A DNA stretch of 64,000 nucleotides from Phormidium tanganyikae FI6-MK23 (GTDB taxonomy: Bacteria; Cyanobacteriota; Cyanobacteriia; Leptolyngbyales; Leptolyngbyaceae): NCBI GenBank assembly GCA_019359175.1, contig JAHHHU010000024.1, positions 1-64,000 on the forward strand, read 5' to 3'. The position numbers were made by a program, and so were the translations under genes. Position 1 is the stretch's first letter. The number at the start of each line of letters is the position of its first letter. The notes beneath the pieces were generated by a model. The model searched no databases. It was not told where the DNA came from and saw only the letters and a list, made by a program, of their open reading frames with translations. This document shows, piece after piece, positions 1-63,455 of the stretch.

Positions 1-189
1 CAGTCGAATGCTGAAGGACGATTGCTGTTTCTGAATTTGCTACAGCACTCACAATTCGTTACTCAACGTGTCGCAGGTGAGGTGCGCTCGGCGAGGTGTT
101 ACCGGAGTTTGATCTGCTTTCATTACCTGCGAGCATTACATGATCTCCATCTAAAGGTTCAAGAACTCTACAAGGTACTGTCAACTTAA
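1..189 (+). pseudogene. 3' part of an unrecognised gene, cut by a MITE
   Basis: Frame 1 is open from the window edge and runs about 57 codons before entering the MITE, whose terminal repeat supplies the TAA stop. The visible peptide contains LLFLNLLQHSQFVTQRVAGE and later HDLHLKVQELYK. I do not recognise the family. The left part lies outside the window, so this is either a truncated gene or a chance open frame. The stop falling inside the element matches the pattern at the other copies, where the insertion replaces the true C-terminus. Confidence 0.3.
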
Positions 190-303
190 CTAGATTTCGC
201 TCTAATTATTGAGAATGAGCCACGAAGAAATGAGCTGTTCAGCCTTTGAAAATTAGGCAATTTTTCAATAAGCAAGCCTTTGAGCGGTTAAGTTGACAGT
301 ACC
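174..303 (+). mobile_element. 130-bp MITE, copy 1 (orientation A)
   Basis: Perfect 17-bp terminal inverted repeats (GGTACTGTCAACTTAAC) bound a 130-bp element that has three near-identical sisters at 8265, 11803 and 13549. It encodes no protein. No target-site duplication is visible: the left flank ends CTACAA and the right flank begins CCTGGA. It abuts a truncated GNAT gene on its right. The terminal sequence is loosely like IS6-type ends, but assignment to an IS family is only a guess. Confidence 0.9.
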
Positions 304-7191: not shown

Positions 7192-7523
7192 ATCATGGGC
7201 GTGATTGTATTGTGATCGCCGATAGGATAGCGGTATTGTGAGCGATTCAGTTTCCAGTTATTCATGCCCGTTCTCCTTAGCATTGTTGAGTGATGTTGTC
7301 CTTTGTGTTGACGATCGAACCTGGTCGCTTAGACCCTGTTCCAGCAGTAGAAAAGCGATTGAGAGCAGACTCGTTAATCTCTGAGTTTACTGTCTGTAAT
7401 GTCGAGCATCAGATGAAGTTGGCTCATGCGTATTCTTGGGGAAAAGGAGGGCAACCGCCTATTTATCTAACGTAAATTCTCAGTTTTTGGCTACTTTTAG
7501 TTGAGTTAAACTAGCTGACCCCC
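7192..7523. other. Gene-free stretch with a vestige of a duplicated gene start
   Basis: No convincing gene. Positions 7249-7291 resemble positions 9785-9826, the start and leader of the small secreted protein gene at 9435-9800: both contain TTTCCA...ATTCATG, a CTCCT..AGCATT block and GTTGAGT. On the minus strand this encodes MNNWKL compared with MNHWKL. It is probably the remnant of a second copy. The rest shows no repeat or terminator that I can support. Confidence 0.4.
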
Positions 7524-8264
7524 ATGCCTCCTACCCTCACTCTGCGGCAAACTTTGCTCTATAGTTGCACTTCGATCGGCATCAATTTAATCAATACTGC
7601 TGTTTCGACCTGGCTGCTTTACTACTATGCGCCTCCACCTAATACAAGCGCTGTGCAATATCTCTCGGTTACGGTCGTGGGTTTCTTACTGGCGATCGGT
7701 CGCGTTTGGAATGCCATCATTGATCCCTTCATCGGACACTGGAGTGATAACACCCAGAGCCAGTGGGGACGACGAAAGCCCTTCTTGGTACTCGGCAGCC
7801 TCATGACCCTCGGGGCACTGTGTTACTGCTCTGGACGCCTTTGACTGCTTATCCTAGCTTGCTGAATGCCCTCTATTTCCTGACGATGACGATCGTCTTT
7901 TACACAGGAGTTAGTCTCGTCGGCGTCCCCTATGATGGCAGCTTACCGGAAATGGCAGCGACGGCAGCTGAGCGTGTTCGACTCAGTATGTGGAAAAACA
8001 TTTTTGGGATTGTGGGCGTGTTGGGCGGTGCAGTCATTACCAGTATTGTCTACAACCAGTGGGGCGCGATCTCCATGGGGGGAGTGCTCGGAACCCTTGG
8101 GGTGGTAACAGTGGGACTGACCCTCCTAGTTCTCCCAAAACGAATCCGGCCTGCGGTTGGGTCGAGCGCCAAGGTCGAAGTCATCGCATCGATGAGCTTT
8201 TGGCAAAGCCTGCGTGCGACGCTGCGGAATCGCAAGTTTTTGATCCTTTGTAGCTCCACGATTC
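7524..8264 (+). pseudogene. GPH-type sugar:cation symporter (MFS), frameshifted and truncated by MITE copy 2
   Basis: The first frame encodes the N-terminal half of a glycoside-pentoside-hexuronide symporter, with the diagnostic loop GRVWNAIIDPFIGHWSDN and RRKPFLVLGS. The frame breaks near 7822-7826: TGTTACTG would give a continuous reading if one T were added (TGTTTACTG, ...CLLWTPLTAYPSLLNALYF). The second frame continues through VSLVGVPYDGSLPEMA to ILCSSTI, where the 130-bp element begins. About half of the usual ~450 residues are missing. The gene is dead twice over. Substrate unknown. Confidence 0.85.
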
Positions 8265-8394
8265 GGTACTGTCAACTTAACCGTTCAAAGGCTTGCTTAT
8301 TGAAAAATTGCCTAATTTTCAAAGGCTGAACAGCTCATTTCTTCGTGGCTCATTCTCAATAATTAGAGCGAAATCTAGTTAAGTTGACAGTACC
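8265..8394 (-). mobile_element. 130-bp MITE, copy 2 (orientation B)
   Basis: Bounded by the same 17-bp inverted repeats as copy 1, with the internal sequence reversed relative to copies 1 and 4. It differs from the others at only one to three positions. It terminates the MFS pseudogene on its left, and on its right adjoins a 69-bp segment also found next to copy 4. No target duplication is seen (CGATTC on the left, CTTTGA on the right). Confidence 0.9.
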
Positions 8395-8463
8395 CTTTGA
8401 GGGGTAAAGATTCAACGGATAATCTTACTTCCGATGCAACCCGTTTGCCCGGTTCTTCGACTT
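8395..8463 (+). repeat. 69-bp segment duplicated at 13679-13747
   Basis: This stretch differs from 13679-13747 at one position (CTTTGAGGGG versus CTTTGAGTGG) and then the two diverge abruptly. Both lie immediately right of a 130-bp element, but the element cores are in opposite orientations. Read on the plus strand, this copy continues into an open frame with a hydrophobic end (FISFLFFTLIFAYVQNWL, stop near 8550), so it may be the tail of a lost membrane-protein gene. Confidence 0.8.
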
Positions 8464-8530
8464 TTGTACCCTATCTGCGGACTTTTATTTCCTTCTTATT
8501 TTTTACCCTTATTTTTGCCTATGTACAAAA

Positions 8531-8708
8531 CTGGCTAACTGGCTAACCCTAGAAAGCCAGAACGCCTGATATATAAAGTCTTTAGGCAAGTTAGTCAGTT
8601 TTTGAAGTGCCTAAACTGGCTAACTTAACGGGGGTCTTTGAGAGACCGAAACGCCCATCCCGTATAGCGGTTAGCCAGTTTTTGAAGTGCCTAACCAAGT
8701 GGCTAACC
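8531..8708. repeat. Two imperfect 80-bp tandem units with a conserved 24-bp core
   Basis: Each unit starts CTGGCTAAC, has a middle block like GA.AG.C.GAACGCC, and ends in a 24-bp core beginning TTAG(T/C)CAGTTTTTG at 8591 and 8671, exactly 80 bp apart with one mismatch. A final TGGCTAACC closes the array. The spacing and AT-rich cores resemble iterons or clustered operator sites, but no replication gene is nearby. Function not assigned. Confidence 0.65.
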
Positions 8709-8799
8709 ATGCTAGAAAACGGGGCACGATCGCGAGTGTCTCCACTTGCAATCCGATCGTGGAATTTGGCACGATCTACCTGTCCCCCCACGAACCGCA

Positions 8800-8934
8800 A
8801 TGGAAGAAACCACTCTTGATTTGATGTTGAATTCCGATTCACCCATTTCGCCCATGTAGATCGAAGCCTGGTTGCTCTTGGCATTCATGCTTGGGCTTGT
8901 GGTTTGGGGACTTGTGGGAGAGCGGCACGATTAG
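8800..8934 (+). pseudogene. Small one-helix membrane ORF, decayed copy A
   Basis: An in-frame 45-codon reading, MEETTLDLM... then IEAWLLLAFMLGLVVWGLVG ending ERHD, interrupted by TAG at codon 20. It aligns with an intact 38-residue ORF at 63339 (MNSEPAIAPMPIEACLLLAF...) and with decayed copies at 9954 and 10865. The predicted product is a short acidic N-terminus plus one transmembrane helix. Function unknown; I recognise no named family. Confidence 0.55.
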
Positions 8935-9195
8935 TGACAACCGCTTCAATTGCGAAACTTCCTGCTCTAACTTGGCAATTCGGCGCAATCGCGCATTGTT
9001 GCTGGCGATTCCTAGGCACGATCGGGAATTCTGAAATTACTCCATTTTTAATTCACGCTTTCATCCCGTCAAATTGGCGGGATTCTTTGTTTGAGGATGA
9101 GCGCGATCGCTCAGTGATAACCCTTAAAACTGCTTGCAGGCGCGATCGTCTCTTAGATGTGGGAATCCTTGAGCCATCCCCCTTTTAAGGCAGCG

Positions 9196-9417
9196 ATGAA
9201 TAAATCTCAGTGGCGCTCTCAATGGCATATCAGGCGCGATCGTATCCCCCAAATGATTCTCATCATCGTGATCGGCGCGATTCCCCTGAGCTATACGATC
9301 GCTCGGGTGTCTGATGAATTTCGACTGTGGCAGGCGGGCGGGAAATGGTGCGCTCAGATTGCGCCGAGCGGTGAAGAAAAAGTTCTCTACGGCTCCGAAT
9401 GCAGTGGTTTCAGATAG
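9196..9417 (+). CDS. Hypothetical single-pass membrane protein
   Basis: A 73-residue reading from ATG 9196: basic N-terminus MNKSQWRSQWHIRRDRIPQ, a hydrophobic helix (MILIIVIGAIPLSYTIA), then an external tail with two Cys (WCAQIAPSGEEKVLYGSECS). The positive-inside pattern and two tail cysteines make it plausible as a membrane-anchored periplasmic or lumenal peptide. An AAGG lies 14-17 bp before the start, rather distant for a ribosome-binding site. No known family; it may be spurious. Confidence 0.4.
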   Translation: MNKSQWRSQWHIRRDRIPQMILIIVIGAIPLSYTIARVSDEFRLWQAGGKWCAQIAPSGEEKVLYGSECSGFR

Positions 9418-9434
9418 CGCGATCGCTTCTATGC

Positions 9435-9800
9435 TTATCTACCCGAATTGTTCTTGAACGCTTTCATCTGTGCATCCACAGCATTCATGTAACCCTGATC
9501 CTGCAAAATGCTCTGCGGCAGTAGATTTGCCTTGATTGCTGCTTGCGCCACATCGTTTGCGGTTAGAGTCCCTTGGTTACAGCCATCCGCAAAGGCTCCA
9601 TAGCTGCGCAAGCCCTGCGCCCGGAGACGGCCTTGGTATGCAGCATACACTAAGTCATACGGCGTTAGAGGCGGAACGGCTGCCGCTGTCGCAACGGGAG
9701 CAGTCGTTGCATTCGTCGGGGTTGATTCTGCTTGCACGATCGGCATCGGAAGTAAAACAGTAGTCAGGAGCAGTCCCAGCATGAGTTTCCAATGATTCAT
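9435..9800 (-). CDS. Hypothetical secreted protein
   Basis: A 121-residue protein from ATG 9800, which follows GGAGAAAGGAC on the coding strand. A signal peptide is clear: MNHWKLMLGLLLTTVLLPM followed by PIVQA as the likely cleavage site. An Ala/Thr-rich linker leads to a compact domain (PPLTPYDLVYAAYQGRLRAQ, SYGAFADGCNQGTLTANDV) that is probably helical. It should be exported to the periplasm. The domain is not one I can name. A vestigial copy of its first codons and leader is at 7249-7291. Confidence 0.7.
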   Translation of the reverse strand: MNHWKLMLGLLLTTVLLPMPIVQAESTPTNATTAPVATAAAVPPLTPYDLVYAAYQGRLRAQGLRSYGAFADGCNQGTLTANDVAQAAIKANLLPQSILQDQGYMNAVDAQMKAFKNNSGR

Positions 9801-9953
9801 GTCCTTTCTCCTAAGCATTCGTTGAGTTAGCGCACGCTTTAGCGAGCAAGTTTTACAGCTTACAGGATGTCTCAGCAGTTGAAAAGTGGTCAGAACACTA
9901 AAGCCATCCTCTCAAGGTTTAAGCAATGGAAGAATCTTTAGTCGATCTATGTA

Positions 9954-10061
9954 ATGAACTCTGAACCCGCGATCGCGCCTATGATGATCGAAACATAGCT
10001 GATTCTGGCGTTCACGTTTGGGTTAGTGACTTGGGGGCTTATGGGAGAGCGGCGGGATTGA
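9954..10061 (+). pseudogene. Small one-helix membrane ORF, decayed copy B
   Basis: 36 codons in frame: MNSEPAIAPMMIET, TAG, then LILAFTFGLVTWGLMGERRD and stop. The TAG replaces the TGT/TGG codon seen in the intact copy at 63339 and in copy A, consistent with a Trp-to-amber nonsense change. The shared leader ATGGAAGAA is at 9926. The rest of the 9819-10291 gap shows nothing else that I can support. Confidence 0.55.
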
Positions 10062-10291
10062 CGATCGGTTGAAGGCGCAATGGCAAGCTCAATTCTTCAC
10101 AACCTGTGTTGGAACAATTCTGTAGGACTCAGAACATTAGGCTTCGGTTTGTTGAGGGTGTTTGTGTTAAATGCTGGGGAGCTAAAACAATTACGATCAC
10201 CTTGGGCTTTACGCCGTCCTAGCTTGATTACGGTACTCTGAAGCATAGAGGATCTTTCTCACTCATTTCGCTGAGCGATTGCTTTTATCCG

Positions 10292-10732
10292 ATGAATAGC
10301 GAATCTTCTCATCCGTTGCCTTGGTTCTCGTTAGGACTGTTTTGGTGTGCTCACGCCATGCTGGGATGGTATCTTGCCGCTCATCATGTTGTCTGGCTCA
10401 TTGGAGTCGCCGCAATCCTCGCAATCGTGATTATTTCTGGAAAGGGAAGGGCTTTGCTTGAGCAGTTGTCGGGGGTGATTTCTCGCACTTTATTTATCGT
10501 TTTATTCGTTAGCGTTTTGATTAGTGTTTGTGCATTTCTGTTTGTCAGCAGGTTTGAGTTCTTGGGTTTGGTCTTTCTACCCCTTGTGACAACGGTTCTG
10601 GCGGATCTGCAGATGCGTTCTGCGGGTTTTGAGCAGCGGCAGATATGGATTTATCTTGCAGTTATCGCTGGATTGGGACTTGGTTTAGGCGAGGTGCTCG
10701 ACCTTGTATTCCTTCCGAGCATGCGGTACTGA
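10292..10732 (+). CDS. Hypothetical polytopic membrane protein
   Basis: A 146-residue protein with four to five predicted transmembrane helices: about residues 10-28, 31-47, 64-85, 88-108 and 121-139. The sequence is strongly hydrophobic, with few charged loops (SGKGRALLEQ; QMRSAGFEQRQ). No catalytic or transport motif is recognisable. The length and even hydrophobicity argue for a real membrane protein. Start ATG 10292. It stands between two decayed small membrane ORF copies. Confidence 0.6.
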   Translation: MNSESSHPLPWFSLGLFWCAHAMLGWYLAAHHVVWLIGVAAILAIVIISGKGRALLEQLSGVISRTLFIVLFVSVLISVCAFLFVSRFEFLGLVFLPLVTTVLADLQMRSAGFEQRQIWIYLAVIAGLGLGLGEVLDLVFLPSMRY

Positions 10733-10864
10733 GAAAGTTCAGATCATTAGAGCACATCTACCGCGGCAAACAGAAAACCGACTTAATCTTCAAGACGGCA
10801 GCCAGTTCAAGTACGATCGACAAATCCAATCTGGGAACGCTGAACCTGTTTCTTATTCCCAGCA

Positions 10865-10989
10865 ATGGAAGAAATCGATTTTTTAATGAATTCTGAACCC
10901 GCGATCGTCGAACCCGCGAGCGCGCCTATGACGACTGGTTGATACTTGGGTTAGTAACTTGGGGATTTCTGGCAGAGCGGCGGGATTGA
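10865..10989 (+). pseudogene. Small one-helix membrane ORF, decayed copy C
   Basis: Begins MEEIDFLMNSEPAIVEPASA, stops at TGA after TTG, and then continues in another frame as LGLVTWGFLAERRD. Relative to copy B, a ~20-bp stretch before the helix is missing. It is the most degraded of the four copies in the window. Confidence 0.5.
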
Positions 10990-11214
10990 TGAGCGGTTAA
11001 GGCGTGATCGCGCTGAATACTTTAGAGAATTGAGTCGTGTTCTAGACCTCTGGATCAACGTGATTGAATGGCTCTTCTGACGGAAATCTTTGGAAAGCCA
11101 GCCACAGGTCCCAGCATTTGTTCTGTGCTCCATTTTGCTCAATGGTTTTGATCGGGGTGCAATTTTTTTCGATTTAGAGCACGCTAAGAATAGGTCGTAT
11201 TGGGGGAGAACACG

Positions 11215-11745
11215 ATGAATCCGCTTACTCCAACTGGAATTTCTGAAAGGATGCAGCAAATTGAAGGAACCCTTTCAGGTGTAGGAGAAAAAATGAAAGA
11301 AACGGCTACTCTTCCTCTTCACAAAGCCGGAAGCTTAAGCGATGCGATTACCGCGAATGTTCAAAATTCTGTGCAAGCCTGGATCGATATACATCCCATT
11401 TTTGCGTGGATTCTGTTGCATCCGCTTTGGAGCATGGGCCTTGCGATTCTTGTCCTTTGGCTTGCATTTAGTTTGTTAACGGCGCTGGTGGATGCAACTG
11501 TTCAGTTGATTTCACCGATTCTAAAATTACCGTTTACTGGATTCAAACGGCTGCTTTTGCCGCGTCGATTCGTTAAGCCTGATTCTTCTCAACGATTGAT
11601 GGAAGTGCTTGATCGATTAGAAGCTTTACGACAAGAACAAGACGACTTACTGAAACAAGTTAAAACAATGTTAGCGTCGGAGCGCAATGTTAATGTTAAA
11701 GAGAAATCTGTGTCCGCCGATCAAACCTTGTCATCAAAACGCTAA
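11215..11745 (+). CDS. Hypothetical membrane-anchored protein with coiled-coil tail
   Basis: 176 residues from ATG 11215, preceded by GGGGGAG. An amphipathic N-terminal region (ISERMQQIEGTLSGVGEKMK) precedes a hydrophobic pair (PIFAWILLHPLWSMGLAILV and WLAFSLLTALVDATVQLI). Then come a basic stretch (FKRLLLPRRF) and a coiled-coil-like end (LMEVLDRLEALRQEQDDLLK). The layout suggests a cytoplasmic coiled coil tethered to membrane. Similar proteins of unknown role are common in cyanobacteria. MITE copy 3 lies about 57 bp downstream and does not damage it. Confidence 0.7.
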   Translation: MNPLTPTGISERMQQIEGTLSGVGEKMKETATLPLHKAGSLSDAITANVQNSVQAWIDIHPIFAWILLHPLWSMGLAILVLWLAFSLLTALVDATVQLISPILKLPFTGFKRLLLPRRFVKPDSSQRLMEVLDRLEALRQEQDDLLKQVKTMLASERNVNVKEKSVSADQTLSSKR

Positions 11746-11802
11746 TAAAACTTTTGTAAAGTTAAATTTAGACAAGCGGGCTGCAATAGCAATAGTTTAA
11801 CG

Positions 11803-11932
11803 GGTACTGTCAACTTAACCGTTCAAAGGCTTGCTTATTGAGAAATTGCCTAATTTTCAAAGGCTGAACAGCCCATTTCTTCGTGGCTCATTCTCAATAA
11901 TTAGAGCGAAATCTAGTTAAGTTGACAGTACC
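11803..11932 (-). mobile_element. 130-bp MITE, copy 3 (orientation B)
   Basis: Same ends and core as copy 2, within one to three differences. It is the only copy that lies cleanly between two intact genes, and it still lacks an obvious target duplication (TTTAACG left, ATCTAAC right). It and copy 4 form an inverted pair around the carotenoid oxygenase gene. The rest of the 11746-12098 gap holds only the leader of that gene. Confidence 0.9.
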
Positions 11933-12098
11933 ATCTAACTCTAGTTTGGTGCTCATTTTTCGAGAGTGTTGGCCATCGCACCTTCTTAGCTGATGAAGAT
12001 TAATAGAAGGGATGTTTGCAGAACATTTAATGCCCATAACGTAATCCCCATAACGAGCATTTCTGCTACAAGGAAGAAGCAAGCTATTTTTCAAACCC

Positions 12099-13478
12099 AT
12101 GACCGCAACTCTCAACCCTTACCTTGCAGACAACTTTGCTCCCGTTCAAACTGAATTAACTGTTGATGAATTGCCTGTCCTGGGTGAGCTACCCCCGGAG
12201 CTGAATGGAATGTTTGTCCGCAATGGACCTAATCCCCAGTTTCCTCCCTTAGGCCGTTATCACTGGTTTGATGGGGATGGAATGCTGCATGGCGTTCAGA
12301 TTCAAAACGGCAAGGCAAGTTATCGCAATCGCTACATTCGGACTCAAGGGTTTGAGCAAGAGCGGAAAGCCGGACGGGCCTTGTTTGGTGGGTTGCTAGA
12401 ACCCTCACAAGCAGGCTTCAAGAATGTTGCCAATACGGCTCTGGTGCGGCATCGAGAGCGCCTGCTTGCACTCTGGGAGGGCGGCGCACCTCATGCTATT
12501 GCAGTACCGAGTTTAGACACGATCGGGGCTTACACGTTTGATCACAAGCTGACTTCCCCAGTGACTGCTCATCCCAAGGTTGATCCAGTGACCGGGGAAA
12601 TGATGTTCTTTGGCTATTCACTGGCACAACCGCCCTACGTGAAACACAGCGTTGTGTCTGCCGAGGGAAAACTGCTGCGAACTGTCCCGATCGATTTACC
12701 CGTCGGCGTGATGATGCACGACTTTGCCGTCACCGAGCACTACACAATTTTTATGGACTTGCCCCTGACATTTCGCATGGAGCGGCTCCAACGGGGAGAA
12801 CCTGCTTTTGCCTTTGAGCGCGATCGTCCCAGTCGATTTGGAATTTTGCCTCGACACGGCGATCCTCAAACGATTCGTTGGTTTGAAGCATCGAGTTGTT
12901 ATGTCTTCCACACGCTCAATGCTTATGAAATGGGAGATGAGATTGTTTTGATTGCTTGTCGCATGGGCAGTACCAGTATCTTGGGTGCGTCTCCTGGTTC
13001 ACATGAGGGAGATAATCGCGCCATTGAGAGTGATGTGCCATTACTTTATCGCTGGCAGTTCAATTTGAAGACGGGAACAGTGCAGGAGCAGACTATTGAC
13101 GATCAATCCTGTGAATTTCCCCGCATCAATGAACAGTATTTGGGACGACCGATCCGCTACGGCTATGCAGGAAGCAGTGCACCCACCTCAATGCCAAAAT
13201 TTGATGGTTTACTCAAGTTTGATTTAGAACAACAGAGCACTCAAAAACACTCGTTTGGCAAAGGACGGTACGGTGGAGAGGGCGTGTTTGTACCAAGACC
13301 TGGTGCAACGATCGAAGATGATGGTTGGCTAATGACGTTTGTACATGACGAAATTCAGGATACCTCTGAGTTCGTGATTATCAGCACTCAAGCAATGTCT
13401 GATGAAGCGATCGTTCGTATCCAGATGCCCCAACGTATTCCCTATGGCTTTCATGGTACTTGGGTTTCATATAACTGA
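12099..13478 (+). CDS. Carotenoid cleavage oxygenase (apocarotenoid-15,15'-oxygenase/Diox1-like)
   Basis: A 459-residue seven-bladed propeller enzyme of the RPE65/CCD family. Four iron-binding His are visible at about 158 (TAHPKVDP), 207 (MMHDFAVTEHY), 271 (YVFHTLNAYE) and 452 (GFHGTWVS). RNGPNPQF and WFDGDGMLHGV near the N-terminus are also family signatures. It oxidatively cleaves a carotenoid or apocarotenoid double bond, giving aldehydes such as retinal; the exact substrate cannot be read from sequence. Start ATG 12099. It is followed after 21 bp by the truncated start of an SDR gene, which might have processed the aldehyde. Confidence 0.92.
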   Translation: MTATLNPYLADNFAPVQTELTVDELPVLGELPPELNGMFVRNGPNPQFPPLGRYHWFDGDGMLHGVQIQNGKASYRNRYIRTQGFEQERKAGRALFGGLLEPSQAGFKNVANTALVRHRERLLALWEGGAPHAIAVPSLDTIGAYTFDHKLTSPVTAHPKVDPVTGEMMFFGYSLAQPPYVKHSVVSAEGKLLRTVPIDLPVGVMMHDFAVTEHYTIFMDLPLTFRMERLQRGEPAFAFERDRPSRFGILPRHGDPQTIRWFEASSCYVFHTLNAYEMGDEIVLIACRMGSTSILGASPGSHEGDNRAIESDVPLLYRWQFNLKTGTVQEQTIDDQSCEFPRINEQYLGRPIRYGYAGSSAPTSMPKFDGLLKFDLEQQSTQKHSFGKGRYGGEGVFVPRPGATIEDDGWLMTFVHDEIQDTSEFVIISTQAMSDEAIVRIQMPQRIPYGFHGTWVSYN

Positions 13479-13499
13479 GAGAATTTTGTAGGAACAGCC

Positions 13500-13548
13500 A
13501 TGTCCTTTCTGAATCAAACGATCGTTCTGACAGGTGCATCGGCTGGAA
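13500..13548 (+). pseudogene. First 16 codons of an SDR dehydrogenase, cut by MITE copy 4
   Basis: ATG 13500 begins MSFLNQTIVLTGASAG, the beta-1 strand and start of the TGxxxGIG nucleotide-binding turn of short-chain dehydrogenases. The 130-bp element starts right after the GGA codon. The rest of the gene is absent to the right, where unrelated sequence follows. Spacing of 21 bp from the oxygenase indicates a former operon. Confidence 0.75.
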
Positions 13549-13678
13549 GGTACTGTCAACTTAACTAGATTTCGCTCTAATTATTGAGAATGAGCCACGA
13601 AGAAATGAGCTGTTCAGCCTTTGAAAATTAGGCAATTTCTCAATAAGCAAGCCTTTGAACGGTTAAGTTGACAGTACC
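13549..13678 (+). mobile_element. 130-bp MITE, copy 4 (orientation A)
   Basis: Same orientation as copy 1. It truncates an SDR gene on the left. On the right it adjoins the 69-bp segment shared with copy 2 and then a YifB/ComM N-terminal fragment. Because its core is inverted relative to copy 2 while the right flank is the same, the two copies cannot derive from a simple segmental duplication. Confidence 0.9.
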
Positions 13679-13747
13679 CTTTGAGTGGTAAAGATTCAAC
13701 GGATAATCTTACTTCCGATGCAACCCGTTTGCCCGGTTCTTCGACTT
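13679..13747 (+). repeat. 69-bp segment duplicated at 8395-8463
   Basis: Matches 8395-8463 with one mismatch and ends abruptly at the same base. Here it continues into sequence that encodes the YifB/ComM N-terminus on the minus strand. That frame runs on through the segment as VEEPGKRVASEVRLSV, so the segment could also be part of that pseudogene. Confidence 0.8.
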
Positions 13748-13865
13748 CCGTTCCGGGTAAGCCCACCACAACGATTCCTGGCAATCCTCCTGCAACATCG
13801 ACCTCGACACCCACTTTCACGGCATCGATCCCAACTAAGGAGGCACTCCAAACTCGCGCTAACAT
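13748..13865 (-). pseudogene. YifB/ComM-like Mg-chelatase-related protein, N-terminal fragment
   Basis: From ATG 13865 the peptide reads MLARVWSASLVGIDAVKVGV and then EVDVAGGLPGIVVVGLP. This is the characteristic N-terminus of the YifB/ComM AAA family involved in branch migration during transformation. A full protein has about 510 residues; here only ~40 convincing residues remain before the duplicated 69-bp segment and the MITE. The AAA module is missing. Loss may matter for natural transformation unless an intact copy exists elsewhere. Confidence 0.75.
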
Positions 13866-13974
13866 ACTTTGTGTTCCGATTGATTCTAATCGGTAGCGTA
13901 CCCAGAATCAGGAAGCGCTTTGAGTTTTTACGATCGAATCGACTGATACAATGAGCAGCAAACGCATTCGATAA

Positions 13975-14331
<357 letters not shown>

Positions 14332-14376
14332 AAGCGGTTTACGCTACGATCGAACAAGCGAATCGGAGGAAAGACC

Positions 14377-14973
14377 ACGGTTTACACACGCCCCCTCGCT
14401 CGATTGATCGAGCAATTGCAGCACCTCCCTGGTGTTGGCCCCAAATCGGCTCAACGTTTAGCCCTGCATCTGATCAAGCGCCCCGAAGAAGAAGTCAAAG
14501 CTTTGGCGATGGCGTTGATGGAAGCAAAGCTACAGGTTGGGTACTGCTCCGTGTGCGGTTATTTGGCGGCAGAACCTGTTTGCGATATTTGTCGATCGCC
14601 TCAGCGCGACACGAAAACAATTTGCGTCGTGGCAGATTCGCGTGACGTGATTGCGCTAGAGAAAACGCGGGAATATCGCGGAAAGTATCACGTACTCGGC
14701 GGGTTGTTTTCCCCGATCGATGGAATCGGGCCAGAGCAACTCAACATCAAGCAACTGATTCGACGGGTGAGCCAGCAGCAAGTTGAGGAAGTGATTCTAG
14801 CCATCAGTCCGAGCGTCGAAGGTGAAACCACGACGCTGTATGTCGGAAGTTTGCTCAAGCCCTTTACTCGTGTGACTCGGATCGCGTTTGGGTTGCCGAT
14901 GGGCGGTGATCTGGAATATGCCGATGAGGTGACTTTGGCAAGGGCGCTTGAAGGTCGGCGTGAATTAGAGTGA
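14377..14973 (+). CDS. recR: Recombination protein RecR, probable ACG start
   Basis: The protein carries the RecR helix-hairpin-helix ([16 protein letters not shown]), the four-Cys zinc finger ([16 protein letters not shown]) and the Toprim domain ([16 protein letters not shown]...[12 protein letters not shown]). It works with RecO/RecF at single-strand gaps. The conserved N-terminus [14 protein letters not shown] is encoded in frame upstream of the first canonical start (TTG 14404) but begins with GTT, not GTG. A strong Shine-Dalgarno GGAGGA at 14365 lies 6 nt before ACG 14377, which I choose as start. No ATG or GTG occurs in this frame between the TAG at 14329 and that point. Confidence 0.88.
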
Positions 14974-63338: not shown

Positions 63339-63455
63339 ATGAACTCTGAACCCGCGATAGCTCCGATGCCGATCGAAGCCTGTTTGCTCTTGGCGTTCAT
63401 GCTTGCGTTAGTCGTTTGGGGGCTTTTACCGGAGCAGCGCGACTTGGGAAGATGA
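63339..63455 (+). CDS. Small one-helix membrane protein (intact family member)
   Basis: 38 residues from ATG 63339: MNSEPAIAPMPIEACLLLAF then MLALVVWGLLPEQRDLGR. A short acidic N-terminus, one ~20-residue helix, and a charged C-terminus. Decayed relatives lie at 8800, 9954 and 10865. All share the leader ATGGAAGAA about 20-30 bp before the start, which here runs into a stop (TAG 63327). Function unknown; the size is like small membrane subunits or regulators. Confidence 0.55.
   Translation: MNSEPAIAPMPIEACLLLAFMLALVVWGLLPEQRDLGR

Follow-up and report, generated by a model that had tools for sequence, protein, structure and literature searches.

An apparently IS6/IS26-type miniature element with the same flank joined to opposite ends of its core in a cyanobacterial genome

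Results

Four mini-element copies and their surroundings

The window analysed here is a stretch of 64,000 nucleotides (C20:1-64000) from the source genome (G000, 5.74 Mb in 77 contigs). It holds four copies of a mini-element, with broken genes beside some of them and a 69-bp segment, F, to the right of two (Table 1). The 17-bp terminal inverted repeat GGTACTGTCAACTTAAC was perfect at all eight ends in the window, against a chance expectation of 0.06 matches with up to 3 mismatches.

Table 1. Positions of the mini-element copies, the F segments and the broken genes in the window.
Feature	Position	Strand	Remark
Mini-element copy 1	174-303	-	at breakpoint
Truncated, frame-shifted MFS_2 transporter gene	7524-8264	+	cut off by copy 2
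Mini-element copy 2, core +	8265-8394	+	130 bp
Copy 2 right 17-bp terminal inverted repeat (core-right end)	8378-8394	-	joined to the 69-bp segment
Segment F, right of copy 2	8395-8463	+	continues into dispersed repeat (..GTACCCTATCTGCGGAC..), repeat also in G005, G007:C74 and contig C1
Mini-element copy 3	11803-11932	+	at breakpoint
First 49 bp of short-chain-dehydrogenase-like gene	13500-13548	+	cut off by copy 4
Mini-element copy 4, core -	13549-13678	-	identical over all 130 bp to the copy at G000:C62:12991-13120 (C62b)
Copy 4 right 17-bp terminal inverted repeat (core-left end)	13662-13678	-	joined to the 69-bp segment
Segment F, right of copy 4	13679-13747	+	last ~11 bp overlap start of comM homology
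N-terminal fragment of comM/YifB-like (magnesium chelatase-like) gene	13737-13865	-	fused to F

Copies 2 and 4 were 99% complementary across 130 bp. The reversal of the core was not exact: at core position 40 the two copies carry different bases (A/G). Copy 2 also differed in its core from the other copies compared. The gene start to the left of copy 4, which we take from its translation to be short-chain-dehydrogenase-like, had a 51-bp match of 86% in G001.

The whole source genome contained 12 matches to the mini-element, and 74 of its sites lay within 3 mismatches of the mini-element end, compared with 16 for the reversed control. Matches were also found in three other genomes (G005, G007 and G011), both in the search of relatives (3 of 57 other genomes) and in the family search (3 of 41). 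The exact 17-mer end occurred in 67 stretches of a genome collection of 257 billion bases, across many phyla; we do not take this spread as a signal, since about 30 occurrences were expected by chance. Positions 7500-14500 gave no Rfam match at gathering scores.

Copies 2 and 4 share a flank on reversed cores

The initial annotation described copies 2 and 4 as sharing a right flank of 69 bp while their cores are reversed, and this was borne out. F follows both copies in the same orientation, and its sole mismatch is at position 8 (G after copy 2, T after copy 4). Leftward from F the two copies were identical for exactly 17 bp, the terminal inverted repeat, and the identity ended where the cores start; it thus comprises the 17-bp end plus the 69 bp. 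In copy 2 it is the core-right end that adjoins F, in copy 4 the core-left end. Because F touches opposite core ends, simple duplication is ruled out, as had been argued.

The flank of copy 4 (query 13679-13950) matched 4 places in the genome and recovered the copy 2 site in G000 with E = 5.9e-28. None of the 4 matches lay on the far side of a copy, which leaves a larger ancestral element with the 69 bp on both sides, as once envisaged, unsupported. The earlier idea that the ends served as crossover points survives in part: the identical ends are the likely crossovers. Ordinary homologous recombination, or an inversion, that spans all 130 bp is out by logic, as every flank stays on its own end.

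After a core-less end located at G000:C1:214,837 comes CTTTGAGTTGTA, which agrees with the start of F after copy 4 at 11 of 12 bases. Past these 12 bp there was no likeness to F, and the score of the whole stretch was matched by 14 of 500 shuffles. We rejected homology to F for the flanks of this end and of a solo end in G001, since without the first 8 bp 221 and 119 of 500 shuffles, respectively, scored equally.

F, part of a dispersed repeat, is fused to a broken comM gene

The 69-bp segment belongs to a dispersed repeat and is fused to a broken comM gene, which the initial annotation had not recognised. Homology to intact comM begins at about 13737 in the comparison with G003 and at about 13734 with G006, whose intact comM/YifB protein matched the Pfam families ChlI and Mg_chelatase. 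A C-terminal part of comM lies at G000:C1:205166-206365, and the C62b copy of G000 has further F-like DNA 136 bp to its right.

G005 has this F-comM junction too (C37:129,210), 83% identical over 180 bp and lacking a mini-element. The blocks to the right of the junction are longer and 77-86% identical between G000 and G005, so the junction is probably older than the split of these two genomes, judging from sequence divergence; other pieces among the elements showed 74 to 94% identity. The G005 counterpart of the DNA downstream of copy 2 starts at C37:121,169 and was 74% identical over 1 kb. At C37:121,156 in G005 the part of F that adjoins an end begins at about position 45, and the same holds for the end of G005 copy L056. 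Compared by eye on the alignment, the first 12 bp were not recognisably alike between G005 and F, and the next 21 bp held 6 differences; perhaps these amount to ordinary divergence. The sequences to the left of F in G005 and G007 matched at 97% over 2819 bp in BLAST.

Similarity to the IS6/IS26 family

We examined loci for pairs of ends (up to 3 mismatches each) at larger spacing and found 10 pairs 828-858 bp apart, eight in G000 and one each in G005 and G007. These lengths are inside the 700-890 bp range of full-length IS6/IS26 elements (PMC7986276). Two transposase frames, both from G000, were scanned and matched PF13610 (DDE_Tnp_IS240) at 2.6e-34 and 2e-36. The genome of the mini-element thus also contains full-length relatives that share its ends and encode a DDE transposase of the IS6 type. 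Its terminal inverted repeat starts with GG and has a G at position 7, as do nearly all of a large group of IS6 members, with one exception (PMC6807381). The element therefore looks like a non-autonomous IS6/IS26-type MITE. We say 'IS6/IS26-type' rather than 'member' because the 8-bp target-site duplication of the family was not seen; several IS6 members are marked 'nd' for no duplication observed in the submitted sequence (PMC6807381). The initial annotation had not considered an element of the IS6/IS26 kind, a kind that rearranges adjoining DNA.

The copies mark rearrangement breakpoints

Target duplications were sought at 16 mini-elements of 129-141 bp (10 in G000, four in G005 and two in G011) that had both ends in the examined loci. 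An 8-bp duplication with at most one mismatch was found at 0 of these 16 and at 0 of the 10 full-length relatives. For five copies, compared by eye, one neighbour was also located in uninterrupted form: for copy 1 in G007:C179 and G005:C37:160,593-160,765, for copy 3 in G007:C154 and also in G001, for the dehydrogenase-like side of copy 4 in G001, for the right side of the C62b copy in G007 and G000 homologs, and for G005 copy L053 in G007:C33. The native sequence resumed across the element in none of the five. As neither native continuations nor target duplications were seen, the mini-elements mark rearrangement breakpoints and are not clean insertions, and copies at breakpoints lose their target duplication.

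At C62b, G005 has about 160 bp between the common left flank and its copy that are absent from G000, and this loss is what an adjacent deletion would leave. IS26 produces both deletions and inversions of adjacent DNA (PMC10433875). The copy 4 flank GGCTGGAA and the C62b flank GGCTGGAG matched at 7 of 8 positions in a comparison of 169 ends, which included many unrelated genomes, gave other pairs matching at 7 or 8 of 8, as is to be expected from so many comparisons, and was traced only for pairs involving copies 2 and 4. A target duplication split between copy 4 and C62b was rejected as a likely coincidence, as the flanks come from different genes (the dehydrogenase-like start and the homologs of the other flank). 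The ends also hold ACTTAAC..GTTAAGT, which we take to fit the attC consensus; an integron attC site was rejected, as the copies lie in both orientations at breakpoints and do not form a like-oriented array.

Flanks shared by other copies

The left flank of copy 3 (..TTTAACG) adjoins its core-left end. In G007:C113 a solo 17-bp end has this same flank, reversed, on its inner side and, on its outer side, the flank found at the core-left end of L056 in G005. The solo end is perhaps a mini-element that has lost its core, maybe through slippage at a short CCGTT repeat. If it is such a remnant, one flank must have changed ends, since both cannot be core-left. Orientation was kept in the two flanks common across species, C62a with G005 L059 and C62b with G005 L056. 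Among the five comparable flanks there was thus one swap, that of copies 2 and 4, one more by inference, and none in the other three. A search for more flanks shared among copies covered 9 of 14 flanks (the older copies and those of G005 and G007): it yielded one more empty site (G007:C33) and no further filled site among the matches inspected.

Discussion

A recombination patch between copies 2 and 4 is our tentative explanation, with a chance that we put just short of even. In this proposal the two copies lay in opposite orientations beside two different members of the F family, and a recombination tract would have copied the end together with F between them. Its anchors would be the 17-bp end on one side and, on the other, the conserved stretch of roughly 35 bp with which F ends. 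Such a tract would be blind to core orientation, since every copy has the same 17 bp at its two ends. It would halt where the cores differ and, at the other limit, where F passes into comM after copy 4 and into the dispersed repeat after copy 2. That F continues differently after the two copies supports the patch. The model asks for one event and draws only on identities that already exist (17 bp at one anchor, some 35 nearly invariant bp at the other), and the limits seen are those it predicts. At C37:121,156 in G005, where F starts only at about position 45, the sequence looks as it would have before a 44-bp patch was copied in. The core-less C1 end with nearly the same first 12 bp also counts for the patch, although a similarity that ends at 12 bp fits site preference too, and G007:C113 would count as a second case.

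Against the patch, 17 bp is short for homologous recombination. For two IS26-family members no reaction occurred at an end with only 16 bp in common (PMC7885326, section 11), so that either host recombination or template switching would have done it here, or the present family is less demanding. A nick made at the end by an IS6 transposase may have been the trigger. We infer that the transfer was conversion-like; as the divergence of F in G005 is maybe ordinary, either copy could have been the donor.

Copy 4 could instead have arisen by inversion of the core in place between its 17-bp ends, through a hairpin, a template switch or recombination of the ends, after the element and F had been copied as a block to the comM locus. 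Either strand folds as a DNA hairpin with a 17-bp stem (z about -6), and in chloroplast trnH-psbA, loops of 25-27 bp flanked by inverted repeats of 18 bp or more occur in both orientations within six species (PMC2903610). The G007:C113 case would fit a flip as well. However, the loop here is 96 bp and so longer than in the chloroplast case, more steps are needed (block transfer, flip and a new left flank), and no flip was seen in the two cross-species pairs C62a/L059 and C62b/L056. Copy 4 also carries the other base at core position 40, which together with its identity to C62b argues mildly against a flipped copy 2, although this single base could be a later mutation. On balance we regard in-place inversion as unlikely, if a serious competitor to the patch.

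Rather improbable, in our estimate, are two independent events that joined an element, in opposite orientations, to one and the same base of F because of a preferred target such as CTTTGAG. A third, core-less end (G000:C1:214,837) adjoins CTTTGAGT, and CTTT starts 4 of 32 mini-element flanks (the pair and the unrelated copies G000 L011 and G011 L061) where the expectation for any one four-base start is 0.1; this count was made post hoc and shifts slightly more weight to site preference and away from the patch. CTTTGAG was, however, beside none of the other 14 mini-elements, target duplication was absent from all 16, and a CTT start was found at 0 of 20 flanks of the full-length relatives. The F segments, moreover, are alike at 68 of 69 positions despite joining different DNA, and this itself calls for recent copying. 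The preferred insertion site of the initial annotation thus holds weakly at best. A mis-join of identical mini-copies in the 77-contig draft seems very improbable. It would be helped by the identity of copy 4 with C62b over 130 bp, through which the far flanks could have been swapped, and by ends lying 109-127 bases from the start of C31, C47, C52, C57 and C60, as at short-read repeat breaks. Only the far flank of copy 4, however, requires bridging of an identical 130 bp, and the core end touching F does not; copy 2 has a core that differs from those of the other copies compared, and G005 backs both right-hand continuations.

Going beyond the recombination patch, and with a probability that we consider small, an IS6-type transposase acting in trans might exchange unlike (left and right) ends of miniature elements, so that a MITE with identical ends would be a symmetric dock for flank swap or core inversion with no target duplication. 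For flank exchange between unlike ends there is one clear case and a second that is inferred, both from draft genomes. If such exchange does occur, cyanobacterial mini IS6-type elements would be interchangeable joints more than passengers, any end being able to take any neighbour, which would fit the missing target duplications in the 16 tested copies. The orientation of an element would then be an unsafe orthology marker, and two points become testable: the minimum common sequence for exchange at IS6-type ends, and whether unlike ends react.

As an IS6-type MITE, the 130-bp element adds to a known kind, for which MITEBth2 and MITEHarch3 are named examples (PMC6807381). It resembles the IS6/IS26 family in its ends, in the size of its relatives and in their transposase domain, and differs in its length from the two IS6 MITEs mentioned in PMC7986276, those being 227 and 336 bp, and from the family in the lack of an 8-bp target duplication in all 26 elements tested, short and full-length. 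The MITEs of Anabaena sp. 90 were termed type II, without matching IS ends (PMC3542288). The copy 2 and 4 pair resembles the 'minute' hairpin-loop inversions of trnH-psbA in having short perfect inverted repeats and a segment in both orientations (PMC2903610), but it differs in its longer loop, in being a mobile element and in showing no orientation polymorphism within one locus, with one assembly per species. The excerpts of the literature searched held no description of exchange between unlike ends by IS6 MITEs. The closest parallel is the targeted conservative reaction of IS26, in which flanks are exchanged at IS ends without target duplication, in some cases with gene conversion (PMC10433875). 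That reaction joins like ends over a long identity, in contrast to the unlike ends with 17 bp in common found here, and flank exchange between unlike ends would be a new variant.

The comM/YifB gene and the segment F

The comM/YifB gene, a fragment of which is entered by F (the 69-bp segment to the right of mini-element copies 2 and 4) after copy 4, was found in two parts in both Phormidium tanganyikae FI6-MK23 (G000) and the compared genome G005, and was whole in G007, G001, G003, and G006. The two G005 pieces lie on a single contig, on the same strand and 46 kb apart, an arrangement suggestive of an island inserted into comM. Additional decayed comM/YifB pieces, covering codons ~33-116, were also present, and the one in G005 has an end 0.26 kb away from a mini-element.

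A 2.8-kb block with F at its end was 97% identical between G007 (C74:1183-4000) and G005 (C37:126,455-129,273). Beyond F, the block enters the dispersed repeat in one genome and comM in the other. Read on the minus strand in the comM frame, F (8395-8463 and 13679-13747) gives EEPGKRVASEV adjoining GTEV, with GTKV instead after copy 2. By-eye comparison showed this EEPGKRVASEV and GTEV reading to be similar to comM's own GTEVQESKERVK. An ancient sequence of the comM type may have been the origin of F.

Coordinates of comM/YifB pieces, repeats, and element-associated segments
Feature	G000	G005	Remark
comM/YifB N-terminal piece	window 13737-13865	C37:129220-129384	
comM/YifB C-terminal piece	C1:205166-206365	C37:81702-82904	
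Dispersed module	window 8827-8930, 9954-10057, 10946-10998, 63339-63442		direct repeats D1 and D4
2.3-kb segment	C62:10689-12990	C37:108659-110961	mini-element at its start in each
Different mini-element, CCTGAGTTCGGG..CCCGAACTCAGG		C37:120,951-121,166	

Repeats near F-like DNA and mini-elements

The dispersed module, perhaps a small repeated reading frame, starts with ATGGAAGAA, has a conserved tail, and also adjoins elements in G005 and on contig C1 of G000. On C1, a fragment with the reading MEPRPRKLLEQVSDLLRVKHYSYRTQQTYIR (236,216-236,312), which looks similar to the beginning of a tyrosine integrase of the integron type, is directly followed by an F-like stretch and by repeats rich in GGCTAAC motifs. 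The different mini-element on G005 C37 appears to have cut into an IS6/IS26-type mini-element copy, leaving a solo end (a lone 17-bp end without core).

A segment bordered by mini-elements

The 2.3-kb segment was 99.0% identical between G000 and G005, against only 77-86% for longer blocks common to both genomes. Beyond it a second, like-oriented mini-element follows in both, directly in G000 and ~160 bp on in G005. Judged from these sequences, the segment looks like a unit with mini-element borders that was exchanged recently, similar to an IS26 pseudo-compound transposon.
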